A stretch of 18,548 bases of DNA, taken from assembly GCA_007131945.1 (NCBI GenBank), contig SLPP01000267.1, forward strand, positions 1 through 18,548. Reading direction: 5' to 3'. The stretch's first letter is position 1, and each line of letters opens with the position of its first letter. Of this stretch, positions 48 to 14,721 are shown in pieces. The position numbers were made by a program, and so were the translations under genes. The notes below the pieces were generated by a model. That model did no database searches. It was not told where the DNA came from and worked only from the letters and a program-made list of their open reading frames with translations. The stretch comes from Paracoccaceae bacterium. GTDB lineage: Bacteria; Pseudomonadota; Alphaproteobacteria; Rhodobacterales; Rhodobacteraceae.

Positions 48-142
48 TCATTTTGTCTTTCGGATCAAAAAGTTGCGTGCTATCAGCGTGTTGAGGCGCG
101 CTCGGTTCTACACCGAGGTGCTACACCGCCATGGTATTGCAT

Positions 143-478
143 ATGAGTCGACCACACCGCCACCCGAAAACCGGCGTCTACTATTTTCGCCAGAAGACCC
201 CCGCCGATCTGCGGAGCAAGTTCGGCAAGGCCGAAGCCGTCTGGTCGCTGAAGACCAAGGACCCCACGGAAGCGAAGATACGGCACTCCGAAGCGGCTCG
301 GCGTCAGGCGCTCGTCTGGGAGTCGCTCAGGGCGCTGCCAGCGGCCATCCCGCACAAGCAGCTGGTCGCGCTTTCCGGGGTCTTCTACCGGGAGCTTGTC
401 GACATGCTGGAATGCGAGCCCGGCGAGACGAAGCTCTGGCGCACCATGCTTCACAAGTTCGAGCCGGCAAGATACTGA
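143..478 (+). pseudogene. Truncated N-terminal fragment of a tyrosine-type phage integrase
   Basis: The 111-residue product begins MSRPHRHPKTGVYYFRQK and continues PADLRSKFGK, which matches the N-terminal arm (DUF6538-type) of tyrosine recombinases that integrate at tRNA genes. Intact members are roughly 350-450 residues. Here the frame stops at 476-478, before any core-binding or catalytic region (no R...HxxR...Y), and no catalytic segment is recognisable in other frames downstream. It sits 95 bases past the tRNA-Thr CCA end, in the usual place of the integrase of a tRNA-integrated element. An in-frame ATG at 131 is an alternative start. The family call comes from motif recognition; loss of function is inferred from the truncation. 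Confidence 0.7.
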
Positions 479-2496: not shown

Positions 2497-2550
2497 CCGC
2501 CGGTGCGTGACGCTTGCCCTGGCCGCAGCGGGACGCTAGGCCCGGTTGCG

Positions 2551-2567
2551 GCGGGCGCCACGCCCGC
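2551..2567 (+). terminator. G+C-rich hairpin between EF-hand and sigma factor genes
   Basis: A perfect 7-bp stem (GCGGGCG / CGCCCGC) around a three-base loop lies 54 bases after the EF-hand stop and 35 bases before the sigma factor ATG. It has no T-tract, so if it ends transcription it is not a classic intrinsic terminator. It could instead attenuate read-through into the sigma operon, or be a by-product of high G+C. Confidence 0.3.
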
Positions 2568-2602
2568 GCCGCCCCGCGACCAGGTCGGGATCCCCGCGCC
2601 GC

Positions 2603-3172
2603 ATGTCCGATGCCGCCAGCCCCTCCGACGCGGCGCTCCTGCGCCGCTACGCCGCCGGCGATGCCGAGGCCGCGCAGCTTCTGCTCGACCGGTTGGCGCC
2701 GCGGCTCTACCGGCTGGCGCTGCGGCTTCTCGCCGACCCGGCGGAGGCCGAGGACATCGTGCAGGAGGCGATGTTGCGGCTGTGGCAGATCGCGCCCGAC
2801 TGGCAGCCGGGGGCGGCGCAGCCCGCGACCTGGGTCTACCGGGTGGCGATGAATCTGGCCACCGACCGGCTGCGGCGCCGCCGGAGCGTCGCGCTGGACG
2901 CGGTGGCCGAGCCCGCCGACGACGCGCCGGCGCCGCTGCAGGCGATGCTCGATGCCGACCGCGAACGCGCGCTCGAGGCGGCGCTCGCGCAACTGCCCGA
3001 CCGCCAGCGCACGGCGGTGGTGCTGCGCCATCTCGAAGGGCTGTCGAACCCCGAGATCGCGGCGCTGATGGAAATCGGCGTCGAGGCGGTCGAGAGCCTG
3101 ACCGCACGCGGCAAGCGGCGCCTTGCCGAACTGCTCGCGCCCCGGCGCGCCGATCTGGGATATGAGTCATGA
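2603..3172 (+). CDS. ECF-type RNA polymerase sigma factor (sigma-70 family)
   Basis: Product of 189 residues, the usual length of an ECF sigma factor. Region 2 (about 24-92) includes AEDIVQEAMLRLW and the -10 recognition helix TWVYRVAMNLATDRLRRR; region 4 (about 126-176) includes LPDRQRTAVVLRHLEGLSNPE followed by a helix-turn-helix ending in ARGKRRLAELL. There is no region 1 or 3. It directs core RNA polymerase to a small regulon, usually controlled by a membrane-bound anti-sigma factor. The stop overlaps the start of the next gene (ATGA at 3169-3172), the usual coupling of sigma and anti-sigma. The ribosome site is weak; the start was chosen because MSDAASPSDAALLRRYAAGD has the normal N-terminal form and the longer frame is an Arg/Pro-rich artefact. 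Confidence 0.93.
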   Translation: MSDAASPSDAALLRRYAAGDAEAAQLLLDRLAPRLYRLALRLLADPAEAEDIVQEAMLRLWQIAPDWQPGAAQPATWVYRVAMNLATDRLRRRRSVALDAVAEPADDAPAPLQAMLDADRERALEAALAQLPDRQRTAVVLRHLEGLSNPEIAALMEIGVEAVESLTARGKRRLAELLAPRRADLGYES

Positions 3173-4109: not shown

Positions 4110-5495
4110 TCAGGCGGCGCTGGCCGAGATCGTGACCTGGTTGCGCCCCTCGGTCTTCGCGGCGAAGAGCGCGACATCGGCCCGTTCGACGACCGAGCGC
4201 GCCGCCTCCGGCCCGCCATCGGGCCGGTCGTTGCCCAGAGCCAGCCCGACCGAGATCGTCACCCGCACCTCGCGCCCGTCCGGAAGCACCACCGGATCGA
4301 CCTCGATCGCGCGGCACAGCCGCTCGGCCGCCATGCGCGCGGTGCCGAGCGTCGTGTCGGGCAGCGCCACCAGAAACTCCTCGCCGCCGATCCGCGCCAC
4401 CAGGTCCGAGGGGCGCAGATTGTCGCGCAGCCGGTGCGCCACCGTCTCGAGCACCCGGTCGCCGGCGGCATGGCCGAAGGAATCGTTGATCACCTTGAAC
4501 CGGTCGAGGTCGAGCACCATCACCGCATAGCGCCGCCCCAACTCGCGCGCGCGCTGAGCGATGCGCTCGAGATGCGCCAGTGCATAGCGCCGGTTGTAGA
4601 GCCCGGTCAGCGGGTCGGCGACCGCCAGGCGCAACCCGTCGCGCACCTGCCGCCGCAACTGGTCCGCGCGCCGCTTCCGCGCGACATGCAGCTTCAGACG
4701 CAACGCCGTTTCCTCGGGGTCGAGCGGCAGTGTCAGGAGATCGGTCGCGCCGAGATCCAGCGCCATCGCCGCCGCCTCGCCGGCGGCATCGGACAGGACC
4801 AGGCAAATGGCCGAATGCCGGCTCTGTACCCGCGAGCGCAGATCCGAGACCAGCCGCAACCCCGAACCTGCCGCGGAAGGGTCGGCGCCGACAACATAGA
4901 CGTCGGGCACGCGCTGGCCATCGGCCTCCGCCAGCGCCGTGGTCGGGGTCAGGATGTCGATCCTGCCGCCGAAATGCGGCGCCAGCATCGCCCGCCAGGA
5001 CAGCGCCGTCGCCGCATCCTGCGCGATCAGCCCCAGATGGTCGGGCAGGTCGAACCCGCCAACGGTCTCGGCGAAACCCATGTCGCCGCAGGTCGCCGCG
5101 CGCAGGCGCAGCTCGTCCTCGGTCTCGCAGGCGCGCAGCAGGCTGCGGATGCGCGCCAGCAGGATCATCTCGTTCAGCGGCTTGGTGAGGAATTCGTCGG
5201 CGCCCGCGCGCAGCGCTTCCAGCCGGCGCGCGCGATCGGCCGAGGCGGTGATGATCACGACCGGGATGTGGCTGGTCGCCGGATCGGCGCGCAGCCGGCG
5301 GCAGACCTCGATCCCCGAGATGTCGGGCAGCATCATGTCGAGGAGGATCAGCTTCGGCTGCTGGTCGCGGGCGAGTTGCAGCGCGGTCATCCCGTCGGCG
5401 GCCTGGATGCTGTCGTGGCAAGCTTCCTTGAGCTTGACTTTCAGCATGATCCGGTTGACCGACATGTCGTCGACGATCAGTATCTTCTCAGCCAT
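4110..5495 (-). CDS. pleD: PleD-type response regulator / diguanylate cyclase (REC-REC-GGDEF)
   Basis: Product of 461 residues, close to Caulobacter PleD in length and layout. REC1 (about 3-120) has the acidic pair D9/D10, phospho-acceptor D53 (LLDMMLPD) and K105 (LTKPL). REC2 (about 150-272) is degenerate: D205 may occupy the acceptor position but the conserved Lys is replaced (LTLPL), so it is probably the dimerisation adaptor. The GGDEF domain (about 290-455) has an intact active site GGEEF at 370-374 and an inhibitory I-site RPSD at 361-364, five residues upstream. It should make c-di-GMP when phosphorylated, under product feedback. The start was chosen for the site GGAAGAGG and the MAEKILIVDD beginning. 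Divergent from DUF3572, a common alphaproteobacterial arrangement; no divK is next to it. Confidence 0.93.
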   Translation of the reverse strand: MAEKILIVDDMSVNRIMLKVKLKEACHDSIQAADGMTALQLARDQQPKLILLDMMLPDISGIEVCRRLRADPATSHIPVVIITASADRARRLEALRAGADEFLTKPLNEMILLARIRSLLRACETEDELRLRAATCGDMGFAETVGGFDLPDHLGLIAQDAATALSWRAMLAPHFGGRIDILTPTTALAEADGQRVPDVYVVGADPSAAGSGLRLVSDLRSRVQSRHSAICLVLSDAAGEAAAMALDLGATDLLTLPLDPEETALRLKLHVARKRRADQLRRQVRDGLRLAVADPLTGLYNRRYALAHLERIAQRARELGRRYAVMVLDLDRFKVINDSFGHAAGDRVLETVAHRLRDNLRPSDLVARIGGEEFLVALPDTTLGTARMAAERLCRAIEVDPVVLPDGREVRVTISVGLALGNDRPDGGPEAARSVVERADVALFAAKTEGRNQVTISASAA

Positions 5496-5712
5496 GGCCT
5501 CTTCCGCGAAGGTCCCGTTGCCGGGTCCGGACCGATATAGACGGAGTGAACGCACTCATACCGAAGCGTGCTCAACTTGTCAGATCGAATGGTTAACATT
5601 TTCTTTCACTTCGTTAACGAATGGCAAAGGCCGGCGGGGCCTCGCGCAAGATTGTTCTCGTTTCATCAACGTTATGGACCCGAATGGGAAACGATGTGGC
5701 GGTGACGCGTCA

Positions 5713-5991: not shown

Positions 5992-6722
5992 GGCGCCCGG
6001 TCGGCATGCCCGCGCCCTTCGCTGCCGAGTTGCGCGGTCTGGTTTTCGACAAGGATGGAACGCTTTACGACTTCCAGGCCAGCTGGGGCATCTGGGCACA
6101 GGCGGTACTCGTCGAGCTCACCGGCGAGGATGTCGCGCTCGCCGCGCGGCTGGCCGATGTGATGCGCTTCGATCCGCAGAGCGCGCGGTTTCATCGCGAC
6201 AGCCCGGTGATTGCCGAGACGAACGACCGGATCGCCGCGCTCCTGGCGGCGCATCTGCCCGACTGGCCGGGCGGCGCGATGTCGCTGGCCGACTGGCTGG
6301 CCGAGCGGGCGGCGCGGGCGCCGATGATCGAGGCAACGCCGTTGCGCCCACTCCTCGCGCGGCTCGGATCGGCGGGTTTCCGCCTAGGCGTGGCGACCAA
6401 CGACTTCGAAGCCGTCGCGCGGGCGCATCTGGCCGCCGAGGTCGCGCTCTTCGACTTCGTGGCGGGCGCCGATTCGGGGCACGGCGCGAAGCCGGATCCT
6501 GGGATGCTGCTCGCCTTCGTCGCCCGGACCGGCCTGCCGCCGCGGCAGGTCCTGATGGTCGGTGACAGCCGTCACGACCTCGAGGCCGGGCGCGCCGCGG
6601 GCATGCGGACGCTGGCCGTGCTGACCGGGGTCGCCGGCGAGGACGAGCTGGCGCCCTTCGCCGACGCCGTCTGCCCCGACATCGGGCACCTTCCGCGCCT
6701 GCTGGGGCTGCAGCCGGGCTGA
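5988..6722 (+). CDS. HAD-superfamily hydrolase, phosphoglycolate phosphatase-like
   Basis: Product of 244 residues carrying all four HAD motifs: I, DKDGTLYDF (nucleophile D21, acid D23); II, VATND (T137); III, GAKPDP (K168); IV, MVGDSRHDLEAG (D193, D197). A helical cap domain lies between motifs I and II (about 30-120), as in subfamily IA phosphatases such as phosphoglycolate phosphatase. Substrate specificity cannot be read from the sequence. The start overlaps the DUF3572 stop; an in-frame ATG at 6006 is an alternative. No functional tie to the flanking c-di-GMP genes is evident. Confidence 0.88.
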   Translation: MRRPVGMPAPFAAELRGLVFDKDGTLYDFQASWGIWAQAVLVELTGEDVALAARLADVMRFDPQSARFHRDSPVIAETNDRIAALLAAHLPDWPGGAMSLADWLAERAARAPMIEATPLRPLLARLGSAGFRLGVATNDFEAVARAHLAAEVALFDFVAGADSGHGAKPDPGMLLAFVARTGLPPRQVLMVGDSRHDLEAGRAAGMRTLAVLTGVAGEDELAPFADAVCPDIGHLPRLLGLQPG

Positions 6723-6809
6723 TCGGGCCTTGGTGAATCCTTAACGGCTATCGCCTAGCGTCACCGCGGGCCGGCTCGGGCCCGGAAGCGGCCTGGGGGA
6801 CCGGTACGC

Positions 6810-7451
6810 ATGCATGGACTTGTCAACCGCGCGATCCAGTGCTTCCTGCACGAGTCGTTCGGTGCCGCGCTCTGGGACGCGGTGGCCGAGCGCGCGGAAC
6901 TGACCGAGGCGCTGGGGCCCGACGGGTTCGAGGCGATGCGCGTCTATGACGACGCGCTGACCGAGGCGGTCCTTGCCGCGGCCTGCGAACGGCTGAACCG
7001 GCCGCGCGAATCGCTGCTCGAGGATCTCGGCCTCTACCTGATCTGGAACGACCGGCTGGAGCCGCTGCGCCGACTGCTGCGCTTCGGCGGGCGCAGCTTC
7101 ACCGAGTTTCTCTACTCGCTCGAGGATCTGCGCGGCCGCACCCGGCTCGCTGTGGCCGAGCTCGACCTGCCCGAACTGGAACTCGACGAGACGGGCGAGG
7201 GCCGCTTCACCCTGCGCTGCCGCGCCTGCCCGCCCGGCTTCGGCCATGTCATGGTCGGCATCCTGCGCGCGCTCGGCGACGATTACGGCGCGCTGGTCGT
7301 GCTCGACCATCTCGGCCCGGTGCCGCCGGTCGCGCGCGGCGACGACCGGCGCCTGCAGGGACGCATGGACGAGCTTCTGTCGATCGCGGTGCACGACCCC
7401 GACTTCCATGCCGGCCGGCGCTTCGACCTCGCCGGCAGCGGGGTGGCGTGA
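6810..7451 (+). CDS. H-NOX (HNOB) domain protein lacking the heme-ligand residues
   Basis: Product of 213 residues. The start MHGLVNRAIQCFL and the middle YDDALTEAVLAAACERLN align well with H-NOX domains, including the guanylate cyclase beta1 subunit. H-NOX proteins normally bind heme and sense NO or O2. Two hallmarks are absent. The proximal heme histidine, which in beta1 follows EFLQNLDAL, is R108 here (EFLYSLEDLR). The YxSxR motif that binds the heme propionates is replaced by C137-R-A139-C-P141. Heme binding by the standard mode is therefore unlikely; the fold is otherwise full length. The next gene, 13 bases on, encodes an HNOBA-GGDEF protein, the usual signalling partner. A GGGGGA ribosome-site-like stretch lies about 10 bases before the ATG. 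Confidence 0.87.
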   Translation: MHGLVNRAIQCFLHESFGAALWDAVAERAELTEALGPDGFEAMRVYDDALTEAVLAAACERLNRPRESLLEDLGLYLIWNDRLEPLRRLLRFGGRSFTEFLYSLEDLRGRTRLAVAELDLPELELDETGEGRFTLRCRACPPGFGHVMVGILRALGDDYGALVVLDHLGPVPPVARGDDRRLQGRMDELLSIAVHDPDFHAGRRFDLAGSGVA

Positions 7452-7464
7452 TGGGCGGGACCGA

Positions 7465-8478
7465 ATGATGGACGCACCACCGCAGCCGCTGACCTTCCAC
7501 CTTGGACCGGGGGCGCTGGGGCACCTGATGCCGCTCTATCTCTGGCTGTCGCCGGACGGCCTCATCCGCGGCGCCGGGCCGAGCCTGCGAAAGATCATGC
7601 GCCCGGACGCCACCGGCGCGCCGCTCGATTCGGTCTTCGAGCTGCGTCGCCCGCGCGGCGTCGTCGCGCCGGCCGAGCTGACCCGCGCCCCGGCGCTGCG
7701 CCTCAACCTGCGCGCCGCGCCGCACACCGCCTTCCGCGGCGTGGCGGTGCCGCTCGCTGGCGGCGAGGGGGTCCTCGTCAACCTCTCCTTCGGCCACGCG
7801 GTGCGCGAGGCGGTGCGCGATCATGCGCTCTCGGACACCGATTTCGCCGCCACCGACCTCGCCATCGAACTGCTCTACCTCGCCGAGGCCAAGGCCGCGA
7901 TCATGGGCGAACTCGAGAAGAGCAACGCCCGCCTGCACGGCGCCAAGCGCAATGCCGAGGAACTGGCGCTGACCGATGCGCTCACCGGGCTGCGCAACCG
8001 CCGCGGCATGGACCGCGCGCTCTCGGGCCTGCTCGCCGCGCGCGCCGATTTCGCGCTGATGCATCTCGACCTCGACCGTTTCAAGCAGGTCAACGACACG
8101 CTCGGCCATGCGGCGGGCGACCATGTCCTGACAGAATTCGCCCGGATGCTGCGCGACAGCGTGCGCACCGGCGACATCGTCACGCGCGTCGGCGGCGACG
8201 AGTTCATCCTGCTCTTTCCCGGCCTGACCGACTACGGCCCGCTCGAACGGGTGGCCACGCGCCTGCTCGAACTCCTGCGCGTGCCGATCGATTTCGCCGG
8301 ACAGCCCTGCGCCATCGGCTCGTCGATGGGCGCGGTGCTCTCGCGCAACTACGCCGCACCGCAGGCCGACCGGATGCTCAGCGATGCCGACCGCGCGCTC
8401 TACGCCTCGAAGGCGGCGGGCCGGGGCCGGCTGACGCTGACCGCCGCCGACGGCACGCTCGACACGCTCGCGGCCTGA
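7465..8478 (+). CDS. Diguanylate cyclase with HNOBA-like sensor domain
   Basis: Product of 337 residues. The N-terminal 130 residues (LTFHLGPGALGHLMPLYLWLSPDG onward in two parts: FHLGPGALGHLM, LYLWLSPDG) fit the PAS-like HNOBA domain that partners H-NOX in guanylate cyclases. A helical coiled-coil linker follows (about 132-168), then a GGDEF domain starting LTDALTGLRNRRG. The active site GGDEF (243-247) is intact and an I-site RTGD (234-237) lies five residues before it, so it should make c-di-GMP with product feedback. No membrane helix is seen, so it is cytosolic. Tandem ATGs at 7465/7468 leave the exact start open. It follows the H-NOX gene by 13 bases in a clear two-gene operon, and should be regulated by that protein. 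Confidence 0.9.
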   Translation: MMDAPPQPLTFHLGPGALGHLMPLYLWLSPDGLIRGAGPSLRKIMRPDATGAPLDSVFELRRPRGVVAPAELTRAPALRLNLRAAPHTAFRGVAVPLAGGEGVLVNLSFGHAVREAVRDHALSDTDFAATDLAIELLYLAEAKAAIMGELEKSNARLHGAKRNAEELALTDALTGLRNRRGMDRALSGLLAARADFALMHLDLDRFKQVNDTLGHAAGDHVLTEFARMLRDSVRTGDIVTRVGGDEFILLFPGLTDYGPLERVATRLLELLRVPIDFAGQPCAIGSSMGAVLSRNYAAPQADRMLSDADRALYASKAAGRGRLTLTAADGTLDTLAA

Positions 8479-8487
8479 GCCTCCGCA

Positions 8488-8516
8488 TTGCCGCCGCGTC
8501 CGGGTGGCCCTATGTT
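8488..8516 (+). promoter_or_regulatory. Candidate sigma-70 promoter of the lipoprotein gene
   Basis: A -35-like TTGCCG (8488-8493) and a -10-like TATGTT (8511-8516) are separated by exactly 17 bases. This predicts a transcript start near 8523 and a leader of about 25 bases before the lipoprotein ATG. It lies just after the diguanylate cyclase stop, so the lipoprotein gene probably has its own promoter. Confidence 0.45.
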
Positions 8517-8547
8517 GCGGTGTCCCCTTCAGGTCGCCGGAGTGCCC

Positions 8548-8985
8548 ATGCCGCGCCCCCTTCCCGCCGCCTGCCTGTCGCTGTTCCTCGCCGGCTGCGT
8601 CGCCATCGACGACCCGGTCGCCGCCCCGGCCGCCTGCCCGGTGATCGCGCAGCGCGACTGGTCGGCCTTCGTCAACGCCATGCCCGGCCCCGACGCCCGG
8701 CCCGAGCTGATCGTCAGCGGCACCGTGACCCTGCCCTCGGCCGGCTACCGCGTCGAGTTGCGCCCCGGTCCCGCCGACCGCTCGGCCCGCCCGGTGCAGG
8801 TGGTCGAACTGGTCGCGATCCCGCCCGACGGCCCCGCCGCCATGGTCCTGACCGAGGCGGATCTGCGCCTGGCGATGCCGGCGCTTTCCGCACCGCCCGG
8901 CGCGCCATCGCCCTATCGCGGTGTGCGCATCCTCTGCGACGGCGAAGAGCTTGCCTTCATCGCCCCGGTCGAGACCGCCTGGTAG
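8548..8985 (+). CDS. Small lipoprotein of unknown function
   Basis: Product of 145 residues with a lipoprotein signal peptide: a short N-terminus, hydrophobic core and lipobox L-A-G-C with the lipidated cysteine at 17. The mature part is a likely beta-rich domain of about 125 residues that includes PELIVSGTVTLPSAGYRVEL and ends FIAPVETAW. Two further cysteines (26 and one near 130) could pair in the periplasm. I do not recognise a characterised family. The start was chosen for the site GGAG five bases upstream and the signal peptide form. The SGNH hydrolase gene follows 27 bases later, perhaps co-transcribed. Confidence 0.75.
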   Translation: MPRPLPAACLSLFLAGCVAIDDPVAAPAACPVIAQRDWSAFVNAMPGPDARPELIVSGTVTLPSAGYRVELRPGPADRSARPVQVVELVAIPPDGPAAMVLTEADLRLAMPALSAPPGAPSPYRGVRILCDGEELAFIAPVETAW

Positions 8986-11734: not shown

Positions 11735-12562
11735 ATGAACGAAAAGGGCCGGTTCCGCCCCTTCCCGGATGCCGAGGACGATGTCCGCACCTGGCGCGAA
11801 ATCCCCGACACGCCGCAAACGCGCAGCCCGGCCTACCGGCTGGCTTTCGACGACCCCGACTTCCTGATGCGCGACGAGTTGCGGCCGGTGCGGCTGCAGC
11901 TCGAACTCCTCAAGCCCGAGATGCTGATGGCCGAGCGGCAGATCGCCACGACGGTGGTGATGTTCGGCGGCGCGCGCATCCCGCCGCCCGGCAAGCCGGG
12001 CGGCGCACCGGGTCTCGCGACGCTCTCGCCCTACTACGCGCGGGCGCGCGACTTCGCGCGACTGGTCACCGAACGCAGCGTCTCGACGGGCTGTCGGCGA
12101 CTGGTCATCTGCACCGGCGGCGGGCCCGGCGTGATGGAGGCCGGCAATCGCGGCGCGGCCGAAGCGGGCGGCATCTCGATCGGCCTCAACATCGTCCTGC
12201 CGCACGAACAGGCACCCAACGCCTGGGTGACGCCCGAGCTGAGTCTCAATTTCCACTACTTCGCGATCCGCAAGATGCATTTCCTGATGCGCGCCGAGGC
12301 GATCACGGTCTTTCCCGGTGGCTTCGGGACGCTGGACGAGTTGTTCGAGACGCTGACCCTGATCCAGACGCAACGGATGGCGCGGGTCCCGTTCCTTCTC
12401 TTCGGGCGCAGCTTCTGGGAGCGGGTTATCAACTGGCAGGCGCTGGCCGATGCCGGCACGATCAGCCCGCACGACCTGGAACTCTTCCGCTATGTCGAAA
12501 CGGCCGAGGAGGCTCTTGCCGCGATCGACGATTGGCCGGTCGAAAGCCCCGCCCCACCCTGA
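11735..12562 (+). CDS. LOG-family protein (TIGR00730; nucleoside monophosphate phosphoribohydrolase)
   Basis: Product of 275 residues. It has both LOG signatures in a Rossmann-like fold: GGGPGVMEAGNRGA at 128-141 and PGGFGTLDELFE at 194-205. The catalytic Arg/Glu set of these enzymes maps to these motifs. LOG enzymes release the base from nucleoside 5'-monophosphates (cytokinin nucleotides in plants and some bacteria); older annotations call them lysine decarboxylases, which is not supported. The N-terminal 70 residues are longer than in the short LOG proteins. The ribosome site is weak (AGGCAGG region). It is divergent from dapD, and its last 73 bases overlap the convergent kinase gene. Confidence 0.9.
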   Translation: MNEKGRFRPFPDAEDDVRTWREIPDTPQTRSPAYRLAFDDPDFLMRDELRPVRLQLELLKPEMLMAERQIATTVVMFGGARIPPPGKPGGAPGLATLSPYYARARDFARLVTERSVSTGCRRLVICTGGGPGVMEAGNRGAAEAGGISIGLNIVLPHEQAPNAWVTPELSLNFHYFAIRKMHFLMRAEAITVFPGGFGTLDELFETLTLIQTQRMARVPFLLFGRSFWERVINWQALADAGTISPHDLELFRYVETAEEALAAIDDWPVESPAPP

Positions 12563-14721
12563 GCCACGCGCCGAAGCCGTGGTCTTCTGTTCGTTGGCGG
12601 CAACAACTCGCCGAGGGCGCTGCGCAGTCGTTCCAGTTGCAGCGGCTTCGTCAGGCAGTCATCGAAACCCGCGCGCATGTAGCTCTCGACCTGATGCGCC
12701 ATCGCGTTCGCGGTGAAGGCAAGGATCGGCACGGAACCGCGTCCGCGCGCTTTCTCGCGCGCGCGGATCTCGTTCAGCACGCTGACCCCGTCGATATCGG
12801 GCATCGAGATGTCGAGGATGATCGCGTCGAATTCCTCGCGCTCGAAGGCGTCGAGCGCCTGCACGCCGCCATCGACCATCTTCGGCGAGATCCCCAACTG
12901 CCCCATCATGGCGCTGAGGATCATCCGGTTGGTACGGTTGTCGTCGGCGGCAAGGACGCGAAGCCCGGCAAGGTCGTATTCGGGCTGCGCCACGGCCTGG
13001 GGCTCGACCGGGATCGCGACGGCCTTCTCGTCCGGCACAGGCAGCGGCAGATCGATCACGAAGCGCGTGCCCTCACCGCGCGCCGAGGTGAAGTCGATCG
13101 CGCCGTCCATCATGTCGACGAGTCGCTTGACAATCGCCATGCCGAGTCCGGTGCCGCCATACTTGCGGGCGATCGAGCCGTCGGCCTGGCCGAAATCCTC
13201 GAACACATGCGACTGTTCCTCGACCGTCATGCCGATCCCGGTATCGGTGACCGTCAGCCCGATGCGGTCGGGATCGGTGCAGTCGATCTCGACATGCACC
13301 GATCCCTCCTCGGTGAACTTGATCGCGTTGCTGATCACGTTGTGGAGGATCTGCAGCAGTCGATGCGGGTCGCCCCTCCGGGTGACGTGGCGCATGCCCT
13401 GAACGGTCACCCCGAAGGAGAGATGCTTTTCCGAGGCGCGCAGCGTATGCACCGCCTCCAGCCGGTGGGCGAGTTCCAGCATGTCGAAGGGCACCGCCTC
13501 GATCGATAGCTGGTCGGCCTCGATCTTCGACATGTCCAGAAGGTCGTTGATGATGCTCAGAAGCAGCGAACCCGAATCGTGCATGAGCCTGATCATGCGC
13601 TTCTGGTCCGTATCCTGCACCAGCCGCCCCAGAACCTCGGCGATGCCGAGAACCCCGTTCAGCGGCGTGCGCATCTCGTGGCTCATCTTGGCCAGGAAAT
13701 GCGACTTGGCGATGTTGGCGCGCCGCGCCTCTTCGAGCGCCACTTCACGCGCTCGCTCGGCATGGACCTGGTCGGTAACGTCGATCACCGCGTAGACGAC
13801 GCGGGCATGTTGCCGTTCGCCGGCCGGCACCGGCGCGGCATGGACCGAGCAGTAGCGCACCCCATCGGGACAGTTCAGCGCGAAGCGCTGGTCGACCACT
13901 GGCTGGCTGGTTTCCATCACCTTCTCGAACGGCGTCTCGCCCGGATCGAGCGGACGGCCATCCAGGTGCGCATAGGCCCAGTTCGCGGGACGGTGATCGG
14001 CGCCCAGCATCTCGTCCAGGGAAGCGCTGAGAACACGTTCCGCCGCGTCGTTGGCGAACAGGATGGTCCCGGTTTCGTCCAGCACGAGGATGCCCATCGC
14101 CGAGGTCGACAGGATACTGGCCAGGAACGCCCGTTCCTCGGCCAGTTCCGCCTGCGCGGCGCGGGCGGCACGGTCGCTCTCGCGCCGCTGGAGGACCGAA
14201 CAGATCACGTCGGCCACCGACTGCAGAAGGTAGAGTTCGCCAGGCAGGAATTCGTGTGCGTGCTCGACTCCGTCGAACCCCATCATGCCGTAGAGTTCCG
14301 AGCCCGAGCGCATCGGCACAAGCACGACCGACCGGATGCCCTGCATCTCGAAGAGCGGGCGGGCCGGGTCCTCGGGATCCAGCGCGCCGACATCGGGCAC
14401 CTGGAAGGGTCGGCCGGCGCGCAGATGGTCGAGGATGTCGCCATAAAGCGACAACGGCAGGCCCTGCAGATGCTCGATCATCGGCTCGGTGTCCGGGCCG
14501 CACCATTCGTGTGTGTTGTTGCCGACCTCGCCGTCGCGGACGAATACATAGGAACGGTCGCGCTTGCAGTAGACGCCGATGCGCGCGATCGCCTGGTTGA
14601 TCGCGCCGTCGATCTCGTCGATCGGCGCGCGCAGCAGGTCGTTGAGGATCTCGACGACCAGTGCCTGGATCCGGGTCAGGCGCGTCTCGTTGGTGATCGT
14701 CTCGCTATGCATGCTGGTCAT
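12490..14721 (-). CDS. Hybrid sensor histidine kinase (GAF-PAS-HisKA-HATPase-REC)
   Basis: Product of 743 residues without membrane helices, so a cytosolic sensor. Order: GAF (about 20-180), short coiled coil (about 182-200), PAS (about 200-320), HisKA with H348 (MSHEMRTPLNG), HATPase with N-box N465 (NVISNAIKF) and G-boxes DTGIGM (493-498) and GGTGLGMAIV (522-531), then REC (about 587-709) with D593/D594, acceptor D637 (LDISMPD) and K692 (LTKPL). The input signal cannot be read; GAF and PAS suggest a small soluble ligand or redox cue. A 34-residue Arg/Ser-rich tail follows REC and lies over the 3' end of the LOG gene. No DNA-binding partner regulator is adjacent. Start at 14721 or 14712 (both ATG). 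Confidence 0.94.
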   Translation of the reverse strand: MTSMHSETITNETRLTRIQALVVEILNDLLRAPIDEIDGAINQAIARIGVYCKRDRSYVFVRDGEVGNNTHEWCGPDTEPMIEHLQGLPLSLYGDILDHLRAGRPFQVPDVGALDPEDPARPLFEMQGIRSVVLVPMRSGSELYGMMGFDGVEHAHEFLPGELYLLQSVADVICSVLQRRESDRAARAAQAELAEERAFLASILSTSAMGILVLDETGTILFANDAAERVLSASLDEMLGADHRPANWAYAHLDGRPLDPGETPFEKVMETSQPVVDQRFALNCPDGVRYCSVHAAPVPAGERQHARVVYAVIDVTDQVHAERAREVALEEARRANIAKSHFLAKMSHEMRTPLNGVLGIAEVLGRLVQDTDQKRMIRLMHDSGSLLLSIINDLLDMSKIEADQLSIEAVPFDMLELAHRLEAVHTLRASEKHLSFGVTVQGMRHVTRRGDPHRLLQILHNVISNAIKFTEEGSVHVEIDCTDPDRIGLTVTDTGIGMTVEEQSHVFEDFGQADGSIARKYGGTGLGMAIVKRLVDMMDGAIDFTSARGEGTRFVIDLPLPVPDEKAVAIPVEPQAVAQPEYDLAGLRVLAADDNRTNRMILSAMMGQLGISPKMVDGGVQALDAFEREEFDAIILDISMPDIDGVSVLNEIRAREKARGRGSVPILAFTANAMAHQVESYMRAGFDDCLTKPLQLERLRSALGELLPPTNRRPRLRRVAQGGAGLSTGQSSIAARASSAVST

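Follow-up and report, generated by a model that had tools for sequence, protein, structure and literature searches.

What does an H-NOX protein respond to once the residues that hold its heme are gone, and with which partner does it work? The question is raised by a stretch of 18,548 nucleotides from a Paracoccaceae bacterium (assembly GCA_007131945.1, contig SLPP01000267.1), referred to below as the window, which contains an H-NOX gene and, starting 13 bases after it, the gene of a diguanylate cyclase. The H-NOX of the window has no histidine at the position of the proximal heme ligand. This loss is not singular: it belongs to a family-wide type of H-NOX carrying Pro, Gln, Arg or other residues at that site.

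The H-NOX protein and its type

In a pairwise alignment with the Nostoc H-NOX, R108 of the window protein falls on the heme ligand H105, and C137-R-A-C-P141 falls on Y134-Q-S-T-R138, the heme-propionate motif YxSxR. Of the two features expected in a heme-binding sensor of nitric oxide (NO), the proximal histidine is replaced by Arg108 and YxSxR by CRACP, and the protein is presumably heme-free. The domain is full length and conserved, scoring 71 bits against PF07700 (curated cut-off 25.5) over profile positions 1-157 of 163; its predicted fold agrees with solved H-NOX structures, and it has no N-terminal extension, residue 1 of the model sitting on chain residue 1. When the window is compared with locus L049, its nearest relative, the ratio of non-synonymous to synonymous substitution rates (dN/dS) comes to 0.166 in the H-NOX gene and 0.155 in the cyclase gene; in seven other pairs it ranges from 0.07 to 0.24 and from 0.15 to 0.29, respectively. 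The H-NOX gene is under purifying selection, being maintained, but not for the heme ligand. A sequence-only reading of the window had already pointed to the absence of both motifs from a full-length, non-decayed domain with an intact partner cyclase, and to the need of a heme-free H-NOX for another signal; this part of it holds, while its ideas of a clade sharing R108 and a CxxC motif, of sensing through cysteines and of the YxSxR loss as a mark of heme loss are not supported.

The spread of the type was followed with a profile from 15 sequences in 394 genomes that represent the same family at roughly one per genus. Matches were found in 288 of them, three (G004, G257, G294) through canonical proteins only and a few others through fragments only; ten of the 288 were not read as this type, their matches being fragments, a stop-containing frame or canonical proteins. 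Of the 265 H-NOX open reading frames (ORFs) extracted, nine were set aside as duplicates and five as canonical, which left 251 distinct sequences; 48 mid-score places were listed and left unfetched, the residue playing no part in the choice. A class-wide search with profile A1 matched 7 of 289 genomes, four of the same family (the window included, and one through a canonical protein) and three, weakly (50 to 96 bits), of other families. PF07700 was matched by all 100 members of alignment A2, three of which are canonical. Canonical H-NOX proteins with His and YxSxR also occur in the family with a GGDEF gene downstream (L002, L003, L006, L011), and matches to both this type and the canonical one are found in some genomes, G218 and G230 among them.

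At the proximal position the 251 sequences carry Pro (169), Gln (22), His (19), Arg (11), Asn (8), Ala (5), Ser (5), Gly (4), Glu (3), Thr (2) and, once each, Tyr, Lys and Asp; in the genus of the window the 17 sequences have Gln (12), Pro (3) or Arg (2). YxSxR is found in that region in none of the 251, as against five of five canonical proteins, and Cys exceeds 20% of the sequences at positions 11 and 137 only. A tree was built with FastTree from the H-NOX and cyclase sequences with the trait columns removed, and was rooted with three canonical H-NOX proteins; L214 and L237, which have in-frame stops and are counted among the 251, and L157, which has no partner, were excluded from it. The proximal site takes 56 steps on this tree, which places it 73rd among 160 columns and is an ordinary rate, and P121, equivalent to Nostoc P118, and G150 take none over the 248 sequences. 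Conservation reaches 1.00 after rounding at G74, R88, R91, P121, G150 and G160, and 0.99 at R87, among the 251; the E71-D72 and RRLLRF signature is not shared by the three canonical proteins that were compared beside the Dinoroseobacter shibae H-NOX.

These features correspond to Group 5 of a 2022 review, a cluster around the Paracoccus denitrificans H-NOX, for which the review's account gives a proximal His in "fewer than 10%" of the members, Pro in most, no conserved Cys and a signal that is unknown, what these proteins sense being explicitly an open question there; in the same account all of the H-NOX groups 1 to 4 keep the proximal His (PMC8738867). Our figure of 19 in 251 (7.6%) agrees with this, and the type has therefore already been described. 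The window protein shares the missing His and the lack of a conserved Cys in its group, and stands in one alignment with the Pro-bearing protein of P. denitrificans; it differs, in a comparison made with the review's description rather than with its sequence list, in having Arg, a minority state (11 of 251), instead of Pro. The P. denitrificans H-NOX was found by tblastn (E-value 1e-23); in strain HAMBI_2443 it has Pro at the proximal position and is 41% identical to the window protein, and its gene likewise adjoins a diguanylate cyclase gene. The axial His is also described as missing in the H-NOX of P. denitrificans and of Rhodobacter sphaeroides by the authors of a study on the former (PMC5588039). 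Two annotated plasmid records label the gene as coding a heme NO-binding protein, yet about nine in ten members lack the heme ligand.

The partner cyclase and the upstream element

A GGDEF gene lies on the same strand within 500 bases downstream of the H-NOX gene, or overlaps it, at 263 of the 265 loci (the nine duplicates and five canonical ones included); of the two others, L157 is cut by a contig end and L009 is canonical. Of the 250 partners that belong to the type, 249 have the exact GGDEF motif, the exception being L061, where the matched frame has just 75 residues. Of 55 partners, 49 match HNOBA (PF07701) at an E-value of 0.01 or better, the best at 6.9e-13; the partner in the window is among them, with an E-value of 0.0088 and 16 bits, under the curated cut-off of 23.4. 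A profile of the partners matches residues 205-383 of the beta1 subunit of soluble guanylate cyclase (sGC) with an E-value of 1.8e-8, and also two H-NOXA-type kinase fragments (2p04, 2p08). The model of the window cyclase (predicted local distance difference test, pLDDT, 94.9) predicts an N-terminal domain of mixed alpha-beta structure, followed by a long helix (132-168) and a GGDEF domain; its solved-structure matches are GGDEF domains throughout the list, with the PAS part barely covered.

The beta1 chain of sGC is arranged as H-NOX, H-NOXA/PAS, coiled coil and cyclase. The window pair appears to have the same order and resembles an sGC beta chain cut in two, with GGDEF replacing the cyclase; it differs from beta1 in being made of two polypeptides, in having GGDEF instead of a class III cyclase and in lacking the heme ligand. 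An H-NOX fold without heme is also known from the pseudo-H-NOX of sGC alpha, where the human protein is reported to lack the His and that of a moth YxSxR (PMC8196705); in the alpha subunit, however, an N-terminal extension plugs the pocket, and the window protein, which begins at the canonical Met, has no such extension. The sGC-like partner makes the pair a simple system of two proteins in which to study how an H-NOX without heme may signal to a cyclase.

Upstream of the H-NOX gene stands a CtrA-box-like element, TTGG-N7-TTAAC. The pattern TT[AG][AG]N7TTAAC occurs in 30 of 248 upstream regions, against a mean of 0.2 in shuffles (Markov resampling with dinucleotides roughly kept, 20 per pattern), and TTAAC alone in 106 of 248 against 17.2, for the most part at a distance of 40 to 59 bases from the start codon. 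It is the degenerate form that is enriched, the strict forms TTAA-N7-TTAA and TTAACCAT being found in one of the 248 regions each. The count of AATTG, a control pattern, likewise came to twice the shuffled value (80 of 248 regions, 40.4 in shuffles), so that the shuffles somewhat underestimate chance and part of the excess may reflect general promoter composition; a promoter and terminator scan of positions 6600-8700 found nothing. Control by CtrA has been reported for the Rhodobacter capsulatus cyclase rcc02629 (PMC9143464), the neighbour of which is described as an H-NOX homologue (PMC7232146).

Members that keep the proximal histidine

The 19 sequences with a proximal His, one of which (L214) has an in-frame stop, are scattered on the tree, which requires no fewer than 14 transitions between the His and non-His states. 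Equal costs and a His root give two losses and 12 regains, and 46 losses are needed if regains are forbidden; many branches are poorly supported, and no direction, gain or loss, is claimed. The tree shows forms with and without the His alternating repeatedly, some of them close to each other, which provides ready natural pairs for comparing NO with another signal on the same scaffold.

One His-bearing member has been described before. Locus L045 is that of D. shibae DFL12, its plasmid being 100% identical to NC_009955.1 over the 4001 bases compared. This H-NOX is listed as an NO-responsive heme sensor, whose NO-bound form inhibits the cyclase Dgc1 (PMC8846402, PMC7232146). It is of the same type as the window protein, with the same gene pair and 40% identity, and differs from it in keeping the proximal His (LDDLHDR); at the YxSxR site it reads C-I-W-H-R. 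The loss of YxSxR thus belongs to the whole type and, since it is found in a listed heme and NO sensor, is by itself no proof of heme loss. Added here, and not seen in the literature searched, are the finding that members with His lack YxSxR too, the repeated change between the two states, the split architecture resembling sGC and the upstream element.

A relation between the proximal His and NO metabolism was looked for in the genomes. Nitrite reductase (NirK over its cut-off or a strong NirS) is carried by 12 of 19 His-bearing and 18 of 61 His-less genomes, a difference (Fisher p 0.014) that is uncorrected for kinship and in which the 61 were hand-picked from the fetched loci. For NorB the counts are 9 of 19 and 59 of 212 (p 0.11); the query was a D. 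shibae ORF that is COX1 in Pfam and without a NCBIfam family, and that is identified as nitric-oxide reductase subunit B by solved structure (E-value 1e-265). Independent His-bearing and His-less pairs on the tree gave no significant association with NO metabolism, too few pairs being informative, and with relatedness taken into account there is no clear tie between the proximal His and denitrification. The genome of the window, which is 92% complete, has no NorB match at an E-value of 1e-100 or better.

A possible role for the pair

We favour, at roughly even odds (about 0.5), the reading that the window H-NOX is a heme-independent inhibitory partner of its own diguanylate cyclase, that is, a Group 5 H-NOX in an sGC-like split pair. 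Sequence, gene order, conservation and predicted folds are what has been established; we infer beyond them that the H-NOX would dock on the H-NOXA/PAS-coiled-coil part of the cyclase and would lower the synthesis of cyclic diguanylate (c-di-GMP). According to a paper on the Caulobacter protein, H-NOX activation is believed to depend on breakage of the Fe-His bond (PMC12329717), and a form without the His may therefore be locked in the switched-on, inhibitory state. The output could then be set by the amount of H-NOX, through a CtrA-type promoter, and perhaps also by a ligand other than heme, bound in the hydrophobic pocket, which is conserved. As reported for P. denitrificans, an hnoX mutant is partly biofilm-deficient and a dgcAB mutant overproduces biofilm, and its authors suggest that the H-NOX inhibits DgcA (PMC5588039).

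Several points weigh against this proposal. Kumar and Spiro predict that the P. denitrificans H-NOX contains heme and binds NO, and their report has NO also acting independently of H-NOX in that species (PMC5588039). The presence of NorB in 59 of the 212 His-less genomes indicates that NO is made in many of them. The heme-free state of the His-less proteins, that of the window included, is itself presumed. Finally, a cyclase under a permanent inhibitor would be useless unless a further signal acts on it, so that purely constitutive inhibition is unlikely to be the whole story.

A different and rather doubtful possibility is that the heme pocket, now empty, serves to receive a hydrophobic ligand, lipid-like or acyl, by which the diguanylate cyclase of the pair is switched. 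Comparably doubtful is that heme is still bound, loosely or through another ligand such as His2, and NO sensed. His2 is present in 223 of 251 sequences, residue 2 being Tyr in the Nostoc H-NOX and in the canonical L002; NO is reported to stimulate the attached growth of P. denitrificans (PMC5588039), and the heme state of the oxidised Caulobacter H-NOX is said to fit two protein ligands (PMC12329717). However, His2 is equally frequent with (16 of 19) and without (207 of 232) the proximal His, which does not look like compensation and led us to reject it as a replacement ligand; YxSxR is lost as well, and the H-NOX-independent action of NO mentioned above tells against this alternative too.

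The sequence-only reading had proposed that C137 and C140 sense redox state or metal, which now appears very improbable. The window protein does have C-R-A-C, and in the heme-free H-NOX of Vibrio cholerae, as also in the Caulobacter H-NOX, oxidation of the cysteines of a zinc site is reported to be activating (PMC7108781, PMC12329717); heme-independent signalling by an H-NOX fold is described for those two. Their site, however, is a three-Cys zinc site that is not conserved in the window type. An in-register CxxC occurs in just 11 of 251 sequences and in 8 of 17 members of the genus, and the review's description of Group 5 gives it no conserved Cys (PMC8738867). A CxxC sensor was accordingly dropped as a conserved mechanism. 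R108 and CxxC occur together in two of the 251 only, the window and its nearest relative, and a clade sharing them is not supported. As for a decaying gene or a sequencing error, the window genome is a 417-contig assembly and in-frame stops or splits are seen in genomes G176, G271 and G036, L214 (of G271) being among the 19 with His; yet with a dN/dS of 0.17, matches in 288 of 394 genomes and Arg at the same position in an independent genome, decay is ruled out as a general explanation and has a negligible chance here. In a few genomes the gene does decay, the H-NOX frame being stopped or split in L214, L237 and G036:C34.

The favoured reading of an inhibitory partner can be carried further, though only speculatively and at long odds: Group 5 H-NOX may be a split, heme-free sGC in which the conserved hydrophobic pocket now responds to a hydrophobic signal other than a gas and acts as a switch for c-di-GMP synthesis across most of the family's genera, with His-bearing members such as that of D. 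shibae either having come back to NO sensing repeatedly or being left over from it.

The features of the locus are collected in Table 1, together with other genes of the window.

Table 1. Positions of the H-NOX locus features and of other genes in the window.
Feature	Position	Strand	Basis
H-NOX of the His-less (Group 5) type, 213 residues	6810..7451	+	ORF, PF07700 71 bits, model, fold match
CGC codon of R108, proximal heme-ligand (His) position	7131..7133	+	alignment to Nostoc H-NOX
P121, equivalent of Nostoc P118, invariant across 251 sequences	7170..7172	+	alignment
C-R-A-C-P (137-141), in place of the heme-propionate motif YxSxR	7218..7232	+	alignment to Nostoc H-NOX
Partner diguanylate cyclase, 337 residues: H-NOXA-like PAS, long helix (132-168), GGDEF	7465..8478	+	profiles, model
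CtrA-box-like element TTGG-N7-TTAAC, upstream of the H-NOX gene	6730..6745	+	pattern search
Second diguanylate cyclase, PleD-like (receiver and GGDEF)	4113-5498	-	NCBIfam PleD 409 bits, below the cut-off of 474
Hybrid histidine kinase: GAF, PAS, HisKA, ATPase and receiver domains	12490-14721	-	
EF-hand protein adjoining a sigma-70-family factor (extracytoplasmic function, ECF-like)	1825-2496, 2546-3172	+	
Short ORF resembling the start of a phage-type integrase	131-478	+	by eye
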